Positions 1,710-10,460 of a stretch of 64,000 bases of DNA are shown one piece after another (the stretch's first letter is position 1; each line of letters starts with the position of its first letter). The translations under genes and the position numbers were made by a program. The stretch is from Acrocarpospora macrocephala. GTDB lineage: Bacteria; Actinomycetota; Actinomycetes; Streptosporangiales; Streptosporangiaceae. The notes under the pieces are model-generated. The model was given only the letters and a program-made list of their open reading frames with translations, had not been told where the DNA came from and searched no databases. The stretch is taken from NCBI RefSeq assembly GCF_009687865.1, contig NZ_BLAE01000049.1, positions 1 to 64,000 of the forward strand. The letters are read 5' to 3'.

Positions 1710-2028
1710 GACCGTCTCCACGGTTTCAGGGGATTGACGATGCCATAGCCATGCTGACCATGCCAAGCATCCCTGCCTGCCGTGCTTTCCATTGCCACTG
1801 TCACCTGACGCCGCCGTCGGCCAATTCAGCCGACGAACTGAGAGCACCCGCTGACTCGCCCTGCACGCGAATTCAGACAGCTCAGCACATTCGATACCAT
1901 TCCCACATTATGGGCTATGGCTTCTGTAGAGTACGACATCGGCAATATGATCACCTGTTCACTACCGGGCAGGCATCGGCAGATACGCGCCGCAAGGGCG
2001 AGGCGATGCCCTGACGAGGAGTTACGCC

Positions 2029-3033
2029 ATGCGGGTGAGTGAATTCAGCACTGATGGCCTGCCAGCCCATGACCGCCTCCCCGGCTGGATTGAGAGCGTG
2101 GAAAGATCGCTGACACCCTCCCGGGTGCAGAGTGAGCAGAACGACTTCCGCGGCTGGGTGCGGACGGTGGAGCTAGACAATGTGCAGGTCTCCACCATGG
2201 CCTACCCTCCTCTGATCGTCCGCAGGTCCGCGCAGCACATCCGGCGCAGCGACCCCGAGGCGTACCAGGTCAACCTCATCCTCAGCGGGCAGGGGTGGAC
2301 CGCCCAGGCAGGCCGTGAAGCAGTGATCAGTGCCGGGGAGTTCGTCCTGTTCGACACGTCCCGCACGTTCGAGGGTCGGCGGATATGCGCCCCCGACACC
2401 GCCTGCGGCATCGTCGTCGAGATTCCCCGTGCGCTGTTACCGCTGCCGCCGACTATGGTCAGCCTGCTCGTCGGAGCCTCCTTCTCTGGGCGCCAGGGTA
2501 TCGGCGCGATGTTCCGCCGCTGGCTGACGAACCTCGACAGGCATGCCACCGAGTTCACCGCAGCGGACGAGCCGTCCTTGAGCTCGATCACCGTCGAGTT
2601 ACTGGTGGCCGTGCTGTCCCACCAACTCGACGATGCCGGCGCCACATCGCCGGAGTCACATCGGCGTGTGCTGCGAGTGCGGGTCCGCGACTACGTCGAG
2701 CAGCGGCTCAGCGACCCGAACCTGTCCCCGACCGCCATCGCCGCCGCCCACCAGATCTCCCTGCGCCACCTCTACCAGATCTTCGACGACGAAGATGTGA
2801 CGCTGTCGGCCTGGATACGCCGGCAACGCCTGGAGAACTGCCGCCGCGACCTGGCCGACCCCCGGCTCGCCTCGCGCCCTGTCCACGCAATCGCAAGCCG
2901 GTGGGGCTTCACTGACGCAGCCCACTTCAGCCGTGCGTTCCGCAACGCATACGACATGCCACCCAGCGTCTACCGGAGGCTCACCCTCACCGACCAGCCC
3001 ATGCAGAGATCGACAAGTACTGTGCACAAATAG
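2029..3033 (+). CDS. AraC-family transcriptional regulator
   Basis: A 334-residue regulator. The N-terminal part (about 1-200) resembles the AraC_binding_2 cupin-like sensing domain. The C-terminal 100 residues hold the AraC double helix-turn-helix: LSPTAIAAAHQISLRHLYQIF for the first and SRWGFTDAAHFSRAFRNAYDMPPSVYR for the second. ATG at 2029 has a GAGGAG ribosome site about eight bases upstream (2016-2021). The gene stands alone between the IS3 element and the LuxR-type gene. The ligand and target genes cannot be read from the sequence. Members of this class (feuR/ActR-like) commonly act as activators. Confidence 0.88.
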   Translation: MRVSEFSTDGLPAHDRLPGWIESVERSLTPSRVQSEQNDFRGWVRTVELDNVQVSTMAYPPLIVRRSAQHIRRSDPEAYQVNLILSGQGWTAQAGREAVISAGEFVLFDTSRTFEGRRICAPDTACGIVVEIPRALLPLPPTMVSLLVGASFSGRQGIGAMFRRWLTNLDRHATEFTAADEPSLSSITVELLVAVLSHQLDDAGATSPESHRRVLRVRVRDYVEQRLSDPNLSPTAIAAAHQISLRHLYQIFDDEDVTLSAWIRRQRLENCRRDLADPRLASRPVHAIASRWGFTDAAHFSRAFRNAYDMPPSVYRRLTLTDQPMQRSTSTVHK

Positions 3034-5184: not shown

Positions 5185-5865
5185 TCAATCTCTGCGCATC
5201 GCGATAAGGCGGGGAAATCGAGAGAAACGACTCCCTCGCCATGCGCTCGATCGACCAATCATGATCACTCCGGCGGCGACCACCAAAGCGGTGACGAACC
5301 ACGACCATGACGAGTCGGCCGGATGCCTGGCGATCGCCCACAGAGGAATCTGCCCGTCCGAGTCCGCGCGTCCTGATTCATACAGCGGAACCAGCAGAAG
5401 GATCGGCAACACCCAGCCCAGTGATCGGCCGACCAATGCCGCCGACGTGAAACCCACACCGGACCAGAAGACAATATTGCGAACGACCAGCGGGGCTAGC
5501 CCGAGCGTGCCCCCAAGCGCCAGACTGCCGACCGCAAGAAGCAACGTCAAAACCAGAGCGAGTGTGATCACATAAAAATCAAGCCGGGCGATACTGAGTG
5601 ACGCGGTGTTCTCGAACGAATGCATCGAACTGCGAATCATGGAGGCGACGATGCAGGCGTATGGCACCGGCATTAAGATCGCGAGAGGTAAAGTCTCATT
5701 ACCTCCCGGCAGAAGTAACGTATTCTGCCCCCAGATCACACAGGTGGCACTGACCAGAAGCATCGCCATGACATGGAATCCGACATGGCGGCTCCTGCAT
5801 ACGAGCGCGACGATGCCGACACCTTCAGTACGAGGCTCTGCACCTCGCTGAAGCCGATCAAGCAT
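5185..5865 (-). CDS. Membrane protein, probable ABC transporter permease subunit
   Basis: A 226-residue polytopic protein with about six hydrophobic segments (for example VMAMLLVSATCVIW, VITLALVLTLLLAVGSLAL and FVTALVVAAGVIMIG). It is the third gene of an operon with the permease (5858-7099) and the ATPase (7096-7854). Its ATG overlaps the permease stop by eight bases and has GGAGG four bases upstream, which implies coupled translation. It most likely forms part of the membrane channel of the transporter. No conserved enzyme motif is visible, and the substrate is unknown. Confidence 0.65.
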   Translation of the reverse strand: MLDRLQRGAEPRTEGVGIVALVCRSRHVGFHVMAMLLVSATCVIWGQNTLLLPGGNETLPLAILMPVPYACIVASMIRSSMHSFENTASLSIARLDFYVITLALVLTLLLAVGSLALGGTLGLAPLVVRNIVFWSGVGFTSAALVGRSLGWVLPILLLVPLYESGRADSDGQIPLWAIARHPADSSWSWFVTALVVAAGVIMIGRSSAWRGSRFSRFPRLIAMRRD

Positions 5866-7099
5866 TGCACCTCCCCATCACAGCGATCTGCTTCCTCGCC
5901 CACTCTTCCTGCGCCGCCTGCGGCAGGCCGAGAGTCTGGCGCACCTCGTTTCTGCCCGCTTCGGTGAGAGAGACCGAATCCCATTCCTGGTCTTGCATTC
6001 TGCCGAGCGCGGCCGAGCTCAGCCACGTGTCGAGCTTCGCTCTGGCCTGCATTCTAGGGCGTCCGTGTGCTTCGGTCTCCGAAGGACCGCAATCGGCCAT
6101 TATCTGCCAGGTGAGCTGAAAGATTAACAACGATCTGTAGGACTCGTAAGTGGCGCCCGCGACAACCGGGATCTGAAGGACCGAGCCACCGTTCTCTGCC
6201 ACCAGCCCCTCGTCGGCGACAACCTGCGGGAATCTGATCACACGCTGGGTAAGGCCGATGACATTCTTGGTGGCGTTGGTCGCCTCCGTGAGCCGGGCGG
6301 CGTTCTCTGGCCACAGGCACACGTCGGTCGCCGCTACCCGTTGACAAGCAGAAGCCAAAACCGGCTGCCTGGGCTGCTGAATCGGACCGGCCACCAGCAG
6401 GAACAACACCGAGACTGCCACCGCGACGCAGGCCGATATGCGCCCGCCGTACGAACGGCGCGGTGAACTCACTGGCCCGAAGGCCAACGCGAGCGCGACA
6501 CAGGCCCCCGCGAGCAGTAGGCGAGCGGCCAGAGCCGCCGGACTCACTGCTTTGTTCGCCTCGCCGAAAAATGGCACCAAAATAGAGACGATAAACAAAG
6601 GGAAGAACGATGCGAATCCAGCCAATGGCGCGGCCAGGCGATTGGAAATCGCGCTGCCGATCGAGTGTCCCAATCCGACGACAGTGACAACCGCGGCGAT
6701 GCCAAGCAGCATGTAAGAGAGCCAGAGTCCGCCAGGAGCGGCCTTGTCATGGACGATCAGATAGCTCGCCAAAGCCGCGACCGCCAGTGGAATCAAGGCG
6801 TAACCAAGGCTTACCGACAAATGGACGATCGTGATCTGCCAGCCCGGGCGCGTCGACGTCTGCACCAGCTGTGATGCCGAGGCCCGGTGGATGCGCTGGG
6901 CCGACCATGCGGCGACTGCGGCGATCGCCACTGCCGGGAGTTGCGTCGCGGCGGCGATGACCCTGACGCTGGCTTCGGGCCAGACGTTCTGCCATGACTC
7001 GACTTCACGAAAAAGTATGACCAGACTCAGTAGGCTCGCAGGGACGACGAGCCACAAGAACGGAGAGCGGCGAATTTCGATCAGAAGGATTCTCGTCAT
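5858..7099 (-). CDS. ABC transporter membrane subunit with a large soluble C-terminal part
   Basis: A 413-residue protein. Roughly the first 245 residues carry about six or seven membrane segments in the style of ABC-2 exporters. The remaining part (from about QPVLASACQRVAATDVCLW) is hydrophilic, carries several cysteines and probably lies outside the cytoplasm. The start overlaps the ATPase stop in ATGA (7096-7099) and the stop overlaps the next membrane gene, so the three are one translational unit. Two small secreted proteins are encoded immediately upstream on the same strand and may be linked to the transporter's job (inference). Confidence 0.72.
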   Translation of the reverse strand: MTRILLIEIRRSPFLWLVVPASLLSLVILFREVESWQNVWPEASVRVIAAATQLPAVAIAAVAAWSAQRIHRASASQLVQTSTRPGWQITIVHLSVSLGYALIPLAVAALASYLIVHDKAAPGGLWLSYMLLGIAAVVTVVGLGHSIGSAISNRLAAPLAGFASFFPLFIVSILVPFFGEANKAVSPAALAARLLLAGACVALALAFGPVSSPRRSYGGRISACVAVAVSVLFLLVAGPIQQPRQPVLASACQRVAATDVCLWPENAARLTEATNATKNVIGLTQRVIRFPQVVADEGLVAENGGSVLQIPVVAGATYESYRSLLIFQLTWQIMADCGPSETEAHGRPRMQARAKLDTWLSSAALGRMQDQEWDSVSLTEAGRNEVRQTLGLPQAAQEEWARKQIAVMGRCNA

Positions 7100-7854
7100 A
7101 TGCCGGCCTTGTCTCGATGCAGTGCCGCCGTATATCCCCGCTCAAGCTCTGTATCTCCCCTGGCCCCCTCTGACGACAGATCACGCAATTCTCGAGGGCT
7201 CCCGGTGAAGACCGGTTCGCCATCGGCAATAATCAGCAAGTTGTCGCAGACGGCTGCGACGTCTTCCACCAGATGGGTGCTGAGCACCACAGTGGCCCGA
7301 CCCGAAACTTTCCTGATCAGGTCGCGGAACGCCAGACGCTGCTCAGGATCGAGCCCCACCGTCGGCTCGTCCAGCAGGACCAGGCGGGTACCGCCGAGTA
7401 TGGCCTGAGCGATTCCCGCGCGACGGAGCATTCCGCCTGAAAGATTCTTCATTTTGGTTTTAGCCTGAGCGCCGAGGTCGACGGCCATGATAGCCTCCGT
7501 GACCACTTCACGAGTCAGAGCGGACGGAATACGCCTGAGCCACGCGCAGTAGCTGATGAACTCGTGGACCGTGAAGTTGGGGTGGTAGCCGAACTCCTGG
7601 GGAAGATAGCCGAGGTGGCGGCGGACTTCGCGCGCATCACGATCGTTCTTCACCGTCCTGTCCAGCAGGACAATTTCCCCTGAACGGGGCGCGATGGCCG
7701 TCGCCAGGGTTCGTAGAAGCGTGGTCTTCCCTGCGCCGTTCGGCCCCAGGAGACCGAAGACCCCGTGCGGTATGTCCAGGGTGAGGTTCTTGATGATGGG
7801 AGTCTCGCCGTATCCTTGTGTGAGATTTATCGTGCGCACTGCGGTCGTCGGCAT
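7096..7854 (-). CDS. ABC transporter ATP-binding protein
   Basis: A 252-residue nucleotide-binding subunit with the Walker A motif GPNGAGKTTLL (about residue 35), the Q-loop region YLPQEFGYHPNF, the signature LSGGMLRRAGIAQ, the Walker B motif LVLLDEPTVGLD and the switch histidine in STHLVEDV. The closest general type is the ABC-2/CcmA-like exporter ATPase. It is the first gene of the three-gene operon, and its ATG at 7854 follows GGAG by five bases. It powers the two membrane proteins encoded downstream. Confidence 0.9.
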   Translation of the reverse strand: MPTTAVRTINLTQGYGETPIIKNLTLDIPHGVFGLLGPNGAGKTTLLRTLATAIAPRSGEIVLLDRTVKNDRDAREVRRHLGYLPQEFGYHPNFTVHEFISYCAWLRRIPSALTREVVTEAIMAVDLGAQAKTKMKNLSGGMLRRAGIAQAILGGTRLVLLDEPTVGLDPEQRLAFRDLIRKVSGRATVVLSTHLVEDVAAVCDNLLIIADGEPVFTGSPRELRDLSSEGARGDTELERGYTAALHRDKAGI

Positions 7855-7870
7855 GTTCGCTCCATTTGAA

Positions 7871-7899
7871 GGGCGGCCGACTCATGAGATCGACCGCCC
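7871..7899 (-). terminator. Hairpin between the secreted-protein gene and the ABC operon
   Basis: Ten-base arms (7871-7880 and 7890-7899) pair with one G-U wobble around a nine-base loop. It lies about 57 bases past the stop of the 7956-8312 gene and just upstream of the ATPase start. The tail is only weakly T-rich, so it is a probable terminator or attenuator between the two units. Confidence 0.55.
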
Positions 7900-7955
7900 G
7901 GCTCTGTTATTGGCGATTTTTCAGGTTGTCCGAATCTATCTCAGACGGATGGCGG

Positions 7956-8312
7956 TCAGTCACCGAATACGAAGTCCCAGCCGATGAGTGTATTGCTGCA
8001 GGTGTGGGTCAGGGCCCAGGTCGCGTACTTGTATTCAGTCCAGATGTCGACCTGCCAGTCACAGTCCCAGACTCCGCGGGAGTAGTTGGTGTCAGCGGGT
8101 CCGCTCCTGATACACCCGAGGGCGGCCGCTCTGGTCGTCGGGATTACTCGCTTGCCGTCGCAGTTCCAGCTTGCGAGGGCAGCGCTCGGCGCCGCCGGGT
8201 TGGATTCGGTGACTACCGCCGGCCCCGGGTTCGCGAATGCCGGGGTGGCTCCAACCGTTGTGGTCGCCATCGCACAAAGTGCTGCGGCGGCAGCGACACG
8301 GTACAGTCGCAT
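7956..8312 (-). CDS. Small secreted Cys/Trp-rich protein, copy 1
   Basis: A 118-residue precursor. The Sec signal (MRLYRVAAAAALCAMATTTV) probably ends after TPAFA near residue 28. The mature domain has four cysteines and many aromatics: SWNCDGKRVIP, then AALGCIRSG, then SRGVWDCDWQVDIWT, and ends LIGWDFVFGD. ATG at 8312 is chosen over the upstream frame opening because GAGGAG lies ten bases upstream and the signal peptide begins there. A paralogue, now frameshifted, lies at 8500-8849 with the same leader layout. The cysteines probably form disulphides outside the cell. The function is unknown; it precedes an ABC exporter-like operon. Confidence 0.78.
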   Translation of the reverse strand: MRLYRVAAAAALCAMATTTVGATPAFANPGPAVVTESNPAAPSAALASWNCDGKRVIPTTRAAALGCIRSGPADTNYSRGVWDCDWQVDIWTEYKYATWALTHTCSNTLIGWDFVFGD

Positions 8313-8341
8313 TTGATATAATCTCCTCGCATCGTTGATGC

Positions 8342-8379
8342 CCACGGACGGGGGTTCTTTGCCAAGGCCCCGTCCGTGG
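8342..8379 (-). ncRNA. 5' leader hairpin of secreted-protein copy 1
   Basis: A perfect 12-base-pair stem (8342-8353 with 8368-8379) closes a 14-base loop that reads CCTTGGCAAAGAAC in the transcript direction. It is 30 bases upstream of the ATG at 8312. The paralogous gene has an equivalent hairpin at 8884-8911 with nearly the same loop but different stem bases, and both are followed by TCAACGATGC before the ribosome site. Conserved loop plus changed but paired stem suggests a functional RNA structure or an operator. Confidence 0.65.
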
Positions 8380-8431
8380 AGATTCTCAGGGGACGCCCGA
8401 ATCTGTCCGGCTGCATTGCGGGCGTGAAAAT

Positions 8432-8466
8432 ATGACCCCAGATGATCGGATGACCTTCGGGGTCAT
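8432..8466 (-). terminator. Intrinsic terminator after secreted-protein copy 2
   Basis: Arms ATGACCCC and GGGGTCAT (8432-8439 and 8459-8466) pair perfectly. On the minus strand the stem is followed by ATTTTC. It lies 34 bases downstream of the end of the copy-2 frame and fits a terminator for that transcript. Confidence 0.6.
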
Positions 8467-8499
8467 GAGAAGCCGTTTTTCTGGCGGGCTACTTGTTGC

Positions 8500-8849
8500 T
8501 TAGCCCTCGCCGAAAACGAAGTCCCAGCCGATGAGCTCGCTGCTGCAGCTGTTGGTGACGACCCAGGGGTAGTAACGAGGGCCGGTCCAGATGTCGACCT
8601 GCCAATCGCAGTCCCAGACTCCGCGGGAGTAATTCAAGTCCGCGGCGCCAGACCTCGCACATTCGAGAGTTGCCGCCTTGACGGTGGGGTTGACCCGACG
8701 ACCGTCGCAACTCCAGATGGCCACGCCGAGACGGGTGCCGGATTCACCCCTGAAGGGGTTTTGGCTGCGGCCGAGGCCGGTGCGACTTGGCATAACACTA
8801 CTGCCGTTGCGCAGGCTGCGAGAGCCGCAGCGATACGCTTGACCTGCAT
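8500..8849 (-). pseudogene. Small secreted Cys/Trp-rich protein, copy 2, frameshifted
   Basis: The start at 8849 gives a good Sec signal (MQVKRIAAALAACATAVVLC, ending near ASAAA), but this frame runs on without the conserved domain. The mature domain (IWSCDGRRVNP, then SRGVWDCDWQVDIWT, ending LIGWDFVFGEG) sits in another frame that ends at 8500. One inserted or lost base around 8720-8765, near the runs AAAACCCC and GGGG, joins them. The product would match copy 1 at most conserved positions. It is either a recent frameshift mutation or a sequencing error; the leader hairpin and terminator are intact. Confidence 0.7.
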
Positions 8850-8883
8850 TTATTACTCCTTCTGCTGCATCGTTGACGTGGTC

Positions 8884-8911
8884 TGTCGGAGTTCTCTGCC
8901 AAGGTCCGACA
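8884..8911 (-). ncRNA. 5' leader hairpin of secreted-protein copy 2
   Basis: Stem TGTCGGA/TCCGACA (8884-8890 and 8905-8911) closes the loop CCTTGGCAGAGAAC (transcript sense), which differs by one base from the loop upstream of copy 1. The conserved TCAACGATGC follows before the ATG at 8849. Confidence 0.6.
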
Positions 8912-9389
8912 TAGATGTGTTGACTTCTTGCGCCCACCTCCATGGCCTGGGGAATAGCGCCAGCGCTACGAAGGACATTACGAGATTCGACTCTCGGAGT
9001 CAATGATTTCTCCCGCTAAGCCCTTTCGGCCTGAAGTGAATAGTCATTCACTTCTATGCGTTGACCTGCGAGAAGAGCGCACATTAGCGGCCACGAGGGC
9101 GAACGCCAGGGCTAGAACTCTTCTTGAGAGGTTTCGGACCCGCATGAACACCTTCTTTCTAACGAAGACGCCTCTGCACGATTCTCATTTCATTTCTTTA
9201 TCCAGTCCGACTTCCTCCTCCCTGACCGATTTCGTCGACTTCCATGTTTCCTGCGGAGTCATCAGACATCAATGGGTCGGATGACGGATTCCTGCGCGCA
9301 CCTCCACCATTGGGTGGAGACGAATACGGTTCGCCCCTCCGCCATATGGGCTCTTCGCGGCTGGACAGCTACAGACCGTGAAATGCTGA
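8912..9389. other. A/T-richer intergenic stretch with one palindrome
   Basis: No gene is recognised here. The stretch contains the perfect inverted repeat at 9033-9054 (listed separately) and otherwise lies between the promoter side of the secreted-protein gene and the decayed transposase. Confidence 0.4.
9033..9054. promoter_or_regulatory. Perfect inverted repeat, possible operator
   Basis: GAAGTGAAT and ATTCACTTC (9033-9041, 9046-9054) are perfect complements around AGTC. The repeat is about 180 bases upstream of the secreted-protein copy-2 start. Size and symmetry suit a dimeric repressor site; it is not followed by a T-run. Confidence 0.4.
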
Positions 9390-10460
9390 CTTCTCGTTAG
9401 TTGGGGCGGTTCGGGTTCGAGGATGAGTTCGGTCTGGGCAATGATGGCGTCGAGCAGGTCGGAGCCAGTACCGCAGACGCTTGAGGTGGTGTTTGATGGC
9501 GGCGAGGTGGTCGGCTCCACCCCGGACAGCCAGGTTGGCCAGGTGGCCCTTGAGGTTGGCCCAGATGCCTTCGGTGGGGTTGATTCGGGGGTGTAGCTGG
9601 GAAGCTGGAAGACCGTCAACCAGTCGTGATCGTCGATGAAGGCGCGCATCTCGGCGTAGACATGTGCGTTAAGTTGGTCCCAGACGACCATGATCGGGGC
9701 TCGTAACTGCTGGTGAGCGGCTTGGAGCCGGAGCTTGAAGTCGCGGACTTGAAACTCTTCCGCTCGTTCTTGCGGCTGTGGTAGATGATCGTCCGGTAGA
9801 TCAGGCGGGTGCGTTGCCCGGGCTTGACGCAGACGATCCCGGCGACCGAGGAGACCCCTTGCGGACACCGTCACGACTGGGTCTGACCCCGCCGGGCCCA
9901 GGTTCGGCCCTTGAGGCGGGCGAAGGCTTTACCTCGACTCGTCCACAAAGACGATCCAGGCACCCCGGTCGGCGGCCTGCCCTTATATGTGCCAGGTCTC
10001 CCTGGTCCACGTGGTCATCGCATCTTCGTCGCGCTCGGCGGCGCGGTGCGCGGGGATCTACAGGCGCCAGCCGATCCGGTGCAGCAGGAGGACACCTCGC
10101 GTGGGCTGTAGCCAACGCGGAACAACTCCTTCATCAAGACGATGATCCTCGATAGCGTCCACCGCTGGTCCTCCCAGCCGTACGTGGCTGGCCCTCGGTC
10201 GCGTTCTGCCTCCAGCAGGAGGATCTGTTCCGCCGAGAGGCAGCAGACCGAGCCGCCCGGCCCTTTGGAGGCCAGGGCGGCTTTTCCGCCGCTCTTCCAG
10301 TCCGGTGCCAAGCGTTCGCCGAACTCGAGGTGATCCGCAACGCGCGGGCGACCTGGGCGGCTTCATACCGCGTTCGAACATGCCTGCGGCGCTGAAGCGT
10401 ACCTGCTCGCGCTTGGCGCGGGCCTTGGCGGGACAGGCCGCCATCGTCGGGGTACCGCAC
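9390..10460 (-). pseudogene. Decayed IS630-type transposase
   Basis: Pieces of one transposase can be read in order on the minus strand but in several frames. The N-terminus from GTG 10460 reads RYPDDGGLSRQG. A helix-turn-helix part reads VARALRITSSSANAWHR. Then come GKAALASKGPGGSVCCLSAE and EDQRWTLSRIIVLMKELF, and finally the catalytic part PIMVVWDQLNAHVYAEMRAF with WLTVFQLPSYTPE near 9600-9700. This order and these motifs match IS630/Tc1-like transposases. At least three frameshifts break the frame, so no active enzyme is made. The element ends were not located. Confidence 0.75.

Follow-up and report, generated by a model that had tools for sequence, protein, structure and literature searches.

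A covarying hairpin element in front of unrelated secreted-protein genes of Streptosporangiaceae: a probable new orphan regulatory RNA motif

Two hairpin leaders of Acrocarpospora macrocephala turned out to belong to a wider motif, whose existence, covarying stems, constant place and unrelated downstream genes were established here. That the motif is a functional nucleic-acid element is well supported, and the most likely reading is an orphan regulatory RNA motif that is new. As for its mechanism, I infer that the sense RNA does the work, that a factor binds it, and that translation or stability is the controlled step. The first-pass annotation of this DNA had proposed a functional element in the leader; the element held up, and its RNA may act in the leader or be made from the opposite strand.

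Results

The two leaders in the window

The window, that is the whole stretch of DNA analysed, comprises 64,000 nt of A. macrocephala contig NZ_BLAE01000049.1, and both genes considered here, A and B, lie on its minus strand (Table 1). As the first-pass annotation had described, both are preceded by a hairpin (P1) with nearly the same 14-base loop and with different stems that pair over 12 and 7 positions, and both hairpins are followed by TCAACGATGC (8338-8329 for A, 8876-8867 for B) with the ribosome site next. P1 of gene A consists of the arms CCACGGACGGGG and CCCCGUCCGUGG around the loop CCUUGGCAAAGAAC, and P1 of gene B of UGUCGGA and UCCGACA around CCUUGGCAGAGAAC; the loops are one base apart, the stems are unlike, and the loop of gene A may contain a 3-bp inner stem (CUU/AAG). 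Behind P1 lies a second element, P2, which in gene A is the same inverted repeat whichever strand is taken.

Table 1. Positions of the leader elements and neighbouring genes within the window
Feature	Position	Strand	Description	Basis
Possible sigma-70-like promoter, gene B	8975..9003	-	TTGACT-17-TAATGT	script search without control
P1 hairpin, gene B	8884..8911	-	7-bp stem, loop CCUUGGCAGAGAAC	sequence, models
P2 element, gene B	8867..8879	-	ACGUC-AAC-GAUGC	sequence
Ribosome site, gene B	8856..8861	-	AAGGAG	sequence
Gene B	8500..8849	-	paralogue of A; frameshifted in the window	
P1 hairpin, gene A	8342..8379	-	12-bp stem, 14-nt loop CCUUGGCAAAGAAC	sequence, fold z -5.0, covariance models
P2 element, gene A	8329..8341	-	GCAUC-AAC-GAUGC	CAUC/GAUG near-invariant in 16-sequence alignment A16
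Ribosome site, gene A	8323..8328	-	GAGGAG	sequence
TATAAT (leader: ATTATA)	8317..8322	+	6 nt from P2 of gene A	consensus match only
Gene A	7956..8312	-	118-aa secreted protein with conserved WDCDWQxDIW	
ABC-transporter ATPase 3' of gene A	7096..7854	-		Pfam
Membrane protein with DUF7224	5858..7099	-	next in putative operon	29 bits, cut-off 27

Folded alone, hairpin A was very stable (-28.3 kcal/mol, z -5.0), with none of 200 shuffles as stable. Hairpin B was weak (-10.8 kcal/mol, z -1.5; 18 of 200 shuffles equally stable), and the 88-nt stretch containing it was not above shuffles (z +0.67). The importance of the B stem thus rests on its relatives and not on its fold energy. Searching the 12.1 Mb genome for the loop pattern CCTTGGCANAGAAC without mismatches returned just the two window sites; allowing one mismatch raised the total to 13, and the reversed control pattern reached 9, so that the remaining 11 one-mismatch sites are background. 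The loop alone was rejected as a search key: CCTTGGNARRGAAC turned up 89 times, in 72 of the 250 family genomes, and the reversed control was commoner (~110, counted over the columns listed).

No Pfam or NCBIfam match was found for the product of gene A, and its structure prediction from 3 sequences was poor (pLDDT 34). The gene A element sits between two genes of a putative operon. A 71-aa frame of gene B starts at 8849, and the homologous frame resumes at 8730; compared with the intact copy of Acrocarpospora pleiomorpha (116 aa), the frameshift near 8725-8730 indicates a young pseudogene or an assembly error. A DDE transposase remnant adjoins gene B (9269-9874, minus strand; DDE_3 at 22.9 bits, below the cut-off of 28.6), and the DNA 5' of gene B is unlike that of A. 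pleiomorpha. The candidate promoter of gene B ends 58 nt before the 38-nt hairpin segment; a stricter promoter scan did not list it.

Leaders of the homologous genes

A. pleiomorpha NBRC 16267 (Streptosporangiaceae, same genus as the window) carries both genes with both leaders, and the genomes G064 and G246 carry two tandem copies each, every copy with its own leader. The stem of the second G246 copy differs from that of gene A at two neighbouring pairs, both of them compensated, and the stem of the first copy, which is unrelated, still pairs apart from a bulge. The order B-type gene, A-type gene, ABC ATPase is common to the window and G246. A secreted protein followed by an ABC ATPase was also seen in G246, G064, G084 and the loci of three distant homologues (L026, L028 and L029, in G169, G038 and G061), the ATPase being identified by Pfam for the window and G084 copies and, elsewhere, by visual inspection of translations or DNA. 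In these three distant homologues the leader position is taken, as judged by eye, by strong hairpins of another kind; L026 has an in-frame TGA.

The tandem copies of G064 (L021, 1465-2342) are 97.5% alike in coding sequence and differ in leader stems and upstream DNA, a pattern such as gene conversion would leave behind; another contig end (L022) holds part of a third copy. No relatives of gene A were found in viral contigs, searched with six short peptide patterns, or in plasmids, and no leader matches were found in phages. In three viral contigs (L189, L193, L194) a perfect CCACGGGCGGG hairpin without P2 precedes one shared phage gene of 168-169 aa by 63-64 nt.

Covariance searches and the set of 19 leaders

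Three covariance models were used: R1, built from 3 close leaders and run on 200 family genomes and then on 5 chosen ones; R2, from 7 leaders, run on 342 genomes of the order; and R3, from 11 leaders, run on 40 hand-picked genomes and then on 153 spread over the class. Whenever a search covered more than 40 genomes, its filters were strict and few candidates were scored per genome. With R1 the search arrived at two G034 leaders whose downstream secreted proteins are unrelated to gene A, and R2 gave L096, L097 and L099. R3 added L137, L138, L139 and L140, plus L143 below 30 bits, from the 40 genomes, and one more member, L165 in G095, from the class-wide genomes; the latter again belongs to the window's own family. 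Among the R3 matches listed outside that family, none had the gene layout described below.

The resulting set comprises 19 leaders from 14 genomes and 7 genera, all labelled Streptosporangiaceae, a range that is a lower bound given the strict filters. L165 was missed by R1 and R2 and found by R3 only, so absence from a genome means little. Further instances, whose absence would have told against the first-pass annotation, exist in 13 genomes besides that of the window, many of them before unrelated secreted-protein genes. Throughout the set (19/19) the start of the hairpin segment lies 67-74 nt from the start codon, the paired part beginning some nucleotides inside the segment for B and D246B, and by a simple rule all 19 proteins have a signal-peptide-like start.

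The downstream proteins fall into eight groups without clear mutual similarity, the only between-group blastp match at E 0.01 being a marginal pair (L139/L143, 0.007). The gene A family accounts for eight leaders plus L140, which was placed there by its CDW motif and the same kind of ABC ATPase behind it, not by blastp. A 350-aa family (L086, L096, L097) and a 200-aa family (L047, L099) form two further groups, and the other five are single proteins (L137, L138, L139, L143, L165), with L138 matching peptidase inhibitor family I36. L047 was first matched opposite its gene's strand (28.7 bits, against 11.6 on the gene's strand), where there is no layout; it was kept because the layout fits on the gene's strand and its protein is homologous to that of L099. 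Neither L047 nor L143 has a clear P2. At L047, positions 1995-2121 (plus strand) match the TPP riboswitch at 54.2 bits, against a gathering score of 54.3.

Protein searches with the 350-aa and 200-aa families gave few further homologues, and by eye the motif was not seen in the homologues L124-L129 and L132-L136. Two distant homologues of the 350-aa family (L126 in G133, L128 in G235) have a CUUG...CAAG-type hairpin just before the ribosome site, again by eye.

Gene layout behind the matches

The models contain P1 and P2 only, and none of them includes the layout, defined as a start codon at 65-76 nt, a ribosome site and a signal-peptide-like ORF of at least 70 aa. Eight of the ten new R2/R3 hits of at least 30 bits had this layout, the two without it being R2 hits (L098, 32.2 bits; L100, 30.7 bits), compared with 1 of 67 weaker R2/R3 hits; three R2 hits of 22.5-24.8 bits were left out of the test. 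Random places had the layout in 410 of 200,000 cases (0.2%), with the signal-peptide rule written after members had been seen and the random places drawn from loci that include members. R1 behaved differently: none of its seven hits of at least 30 bits outside known loci (L040-L046) had the layout, and neither did its weaker hits from the five chosen genomes with one exception in 11 (L086, 20 bits). R1 also rewards any perfect GC-rich hairpin, and its seven strong layout-free hits look like that.

Pairing and covariation

Sixteen of the 19 leaders were aligned with MAFFT (A16), leaving out A127, which equals A0 here, and the two leaders without P2, L047 and L143. Standard pairs made up 87.7% of P1 and P2, compared with 77.2% in shuffles; changes on both sides occurred at 10 of 16 pairs, double-change cells numbered 29 against 9.4, and the covariation score was 0.316 against 0.144, none of these values being reached in 500 shuffles. 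Because the models that picked the later leaders reward pairing, this covariation carries some circularity, of which the first-round leaders (window, A. pleiomorpha, G246, G064), reached via their proteins, are free. When the partner was slid by 1-3 columns the signal was lost (25-45% paired). Further pair types were not above chance (14, against 15.4 in shuffles; 471/500). RNAalifold, run without a given structure, returned both P1 and P2, with double changes at 12 of its 16 pairs.

P1 measures 10-12 bp in most leaders and 6-8 in the weakest, and its arms change together at 9 of 11 pairs. P2 hardly varies, which leaves its helix unproven; CAUC and GAUG may be recognised by their sequence. The first-pass annotation had taken a conserved loop on a compensated stem as the mark of the element. 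Its stem half stands: double changes kept the stems pairing once more copies were aligned. Its loop half does not reach beyond the close homologues (window, A. pleiomorpha, G246), and across the wider set loop sequence and length (14-18 nt) vary; what stays constant is that the stems pair, that CAUC...GAUG adjoins the ribosome site and that the start codon keeps its distance.

Accessibility of the ribosome site

The predicted unpaired probability of the ribosome site was 0.52 in the 19 leaders and 0.45 in 103 background ORFs (p 0.20), and with access equal to background no built-in switch is visible. Since the leader does not close the ribosome site itself, regulation would need a bound factor or a pairing RNA. 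In context, the pairing probability of P2 reached at least 0.5 in only 9 of 16 leaders, and that of P1 stayed below 0.5 in B0, B127 and C64b.

Two ways of involving the ribosome site were tried and rejected. Masking by an upstream stretch is strong in gene A (AAUCUCC with GGAGAUU) and in C64a, but the mean of the 19 leaders equals background. By eye, a pseudoknot between loop and ribosome site (CCUU with AAGG) could form in A, B, D, L086 and L047; it is not general, as L096, L099, L137 and L138 have no such stretch. The paired ribosome site of an RNA thermometer was not seen over the 19 leaders, although individual ones such as that of gene A can pair it, nor was the conserved unpaired ligand core of a riboswitch, since loop and internal loop vary among them.

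Wobble pairs and the strand of the working RNA

With its arms registered by hand, P1 in the 19 leaders comprised 184 Watson-Crick pairs, 9 A.C, 2 others and no G.U, and the A of every A.C pair lies in the 5' arm; the A16 alignment adds one U.G, the outermost P1 pair of D246B. P2 in 17 leaders had 7 A.C against 1 G.U. Taken together, the gene strand has 16 A.C and 1 G.U and the opposite strand reads 16 G.U and 1 A.C, although A.C pairs that share a position may go back to a common ancestor, so that the 16 are not independent. The inner stem goes the other way: its 6 U.G on the gene strand are C.A on the opposite strand.

The pattern A-N3-TA, on the opposite strand TANNNT, was found in 14 of 19 leaders and in 1.4% of 147 background ORFs, which surely include false ORFs, so that the enrichment is overstated. 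Leaders without it are B0, B127, D246B, C64b and L165. Where P2 is present as well (12 leaders), the hexamer lies 6-8 nt from it (sd 0.64), with looser spacing to the ribosome site (sd 1.80) and the start codon (sd 1.32). A -10 element typically lies six to eight nucleotides from the transcript start. The sole promoter-like site listed in 7850-9100 lies on the plus strand at 8293-8322 (GCGACA-18-TATAAT), with 10 of 12 matches and 0.2 such sites expected. No -35 enrichment was detected (mean 3.0 of 6 matches, 2.78 when shuffled, p 0.17). Promoter-like sites upstream of the element, which would place it within the transcript, were seen in B0, D246B, C64b, L097, L099 and L165 in a scan run without a control.

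Discussion

I tentatively rank first, with somewhat less than even confidence, a cis-acting RNA element in the 5' leaders of secreted-protein mRNAs that works through the sense RNA and is read by a factor. The mRNA would come from a promoter ~50-90 nt upstream or by read-in from the preceding gene, P1 would fold during transcription and, with P2, provide a platform next to the ribosome site. This platform would be recognised by a trans-acting factor, most probably an RNA-binding protein, through which translation or lifetime would be adjusted jointly for the whole group of exported proteins. Several results pull against the sense leader: the excess of A.C over G.U is the reverse of what a sense-strand RNA helix leads one to expect, the strong R1 hits lack the layout (0/7), further pair types do not exceed shuffles, access to the ribosome site is that of other genes, loops are not conserved across the set, and pairing of P1 or P2 is low in some leaders. 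The reading ranked next, possible but less probable, is a short opposite-strand RNA made of P2 and P1, transcribed from a -10 element between ribosome site and start codon and antisense to the leader. Such an RNA would start at the first base of P2, be complementary to the leader just 5' of the ribosome site, and control the mRNA by pairing with it, possibly through loop-loop contact. Its 16 G.U to 1 A.C are as RNA helices should be, TANNNT is held tightly at its distance from P2 in most leaders, and the one promoter-like site listed around the two genes is of this kind. The missing -35 enrichment, the C.A pairs that the inner stem would acquire, the five leaders without TANNNT and the lack of a consistent U tract behind P1 speak against it, and the wobble count itself depends on hand-registered P1 arms, would gain one U.G from A16 and includes A.C pairs that are not independent. 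A broader version, in which opposite-strand RNAs of ~55-60 nt, head-to-head with each gene and pairing with its leader, would join the exported proteins of the whole family into one post-transcriptional regulon, draws on the 16:1 wobble asymmetry and the 6-8 nt spacing between hexamer and P2, and is more doubtful again.

An improbable alternative, a passive hairpin guarding the mRNA from ribonuclease or keeping the ribosome site open with no regulator, would suit the stable GC-rich P1 of most leaders, the variable loops, and the different strong hairpins seen by eye at the same place in L026, L028 and L029; it has no need of a conserved CAUC...GAUG, a fixed distance or a conserved TA, and ribosome-site access is that of background. 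An operator in the DNA, with the inverted repeat bound by a dimeric repressor, is very unlikely: arm sequences are alike in many leaders (CCACGGNCGGG), yet the arms change together, the spacer varies over 14-18 nt, the position is fixed to the start codon with some promoter-like sites upstream of it, and two genes of a putative operon flank one of the copies. Least likely of all is an attenuator or intrinsic terminator, in which P1 would stop transcription unless prevented. Actinomycete terminators often have no U tract, and stem-pattern matches in six viral contigs look like ordinary intergenic hairpins; against this, neither strand has a U tract behind P1 of gene A and none follows P1 of gene B, P2 and the ribosome site come close behind P1, and a terminator scan did not list P1, although its 8-nt loop limit may also exclude it.

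Among the proteins that Streptosporangiaceae export are many small ones without a known role. If unrelated ones share an RNA element, a co-regulated set could be defined straight from sequence; a new RNA-binding factor or antisense system would be indicated, and a group of anonymous secreted proteins would become a regulon open to testing. The leaders also make a case for using wobble statistics to ask which strand is the working RNA.

Comparison with known systems

The motif looks undescribed. No family of Rfam 15 reached its gathering score in the window, and relaxed scans gave only weak matches at 8300-8950 (the best, BjrC68, at 16.8 bits against 39 and on the opposite strand) and no credible element match at seven related loci, with L137-L140, L143 and L165 lying outside the scan. 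Among the matches listed, no such motif appeared in the titles and abstract openings of open papers, which is weak evidence. Passages of two motif surveys (PMC2864571, PMC6429828) entered the comparison. The orphan cis-regulatory motifs tabulated in the former, such as Actino-pnp, msiK and mraW, are likewise short covarying leader structures of actinobacterial genes that came from comparative genomics; the words 'secreted' and 'signal peptide' are absent from the passages compared (PMC2864571). RNA thermometers before secreted proteins (PMC6992388) share a leader structure in front of a secreted protein, and differ in that the ribosome site is here masked no more than in other genes.

Two further kinds of system bear on the two leading readings. 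Ribosomal-protein leaders carry a protein-binding stem-loop near the ribosome site. The stem-loop of the present motif is placed likewise, and here one motif precedes many unrelated exported proteins and the binder is hypothetical. RNA-IN/RNA-OUT and CopA/CopT are cis-antisense pairs with complementary hairpin loops; should the opposite-strand reading be true, the likeness would be close, with a short hairpin RNA complementary to a leader by the ribosome site, and the predicted RNA would here serve secreted proteins rather than replication or transposition.
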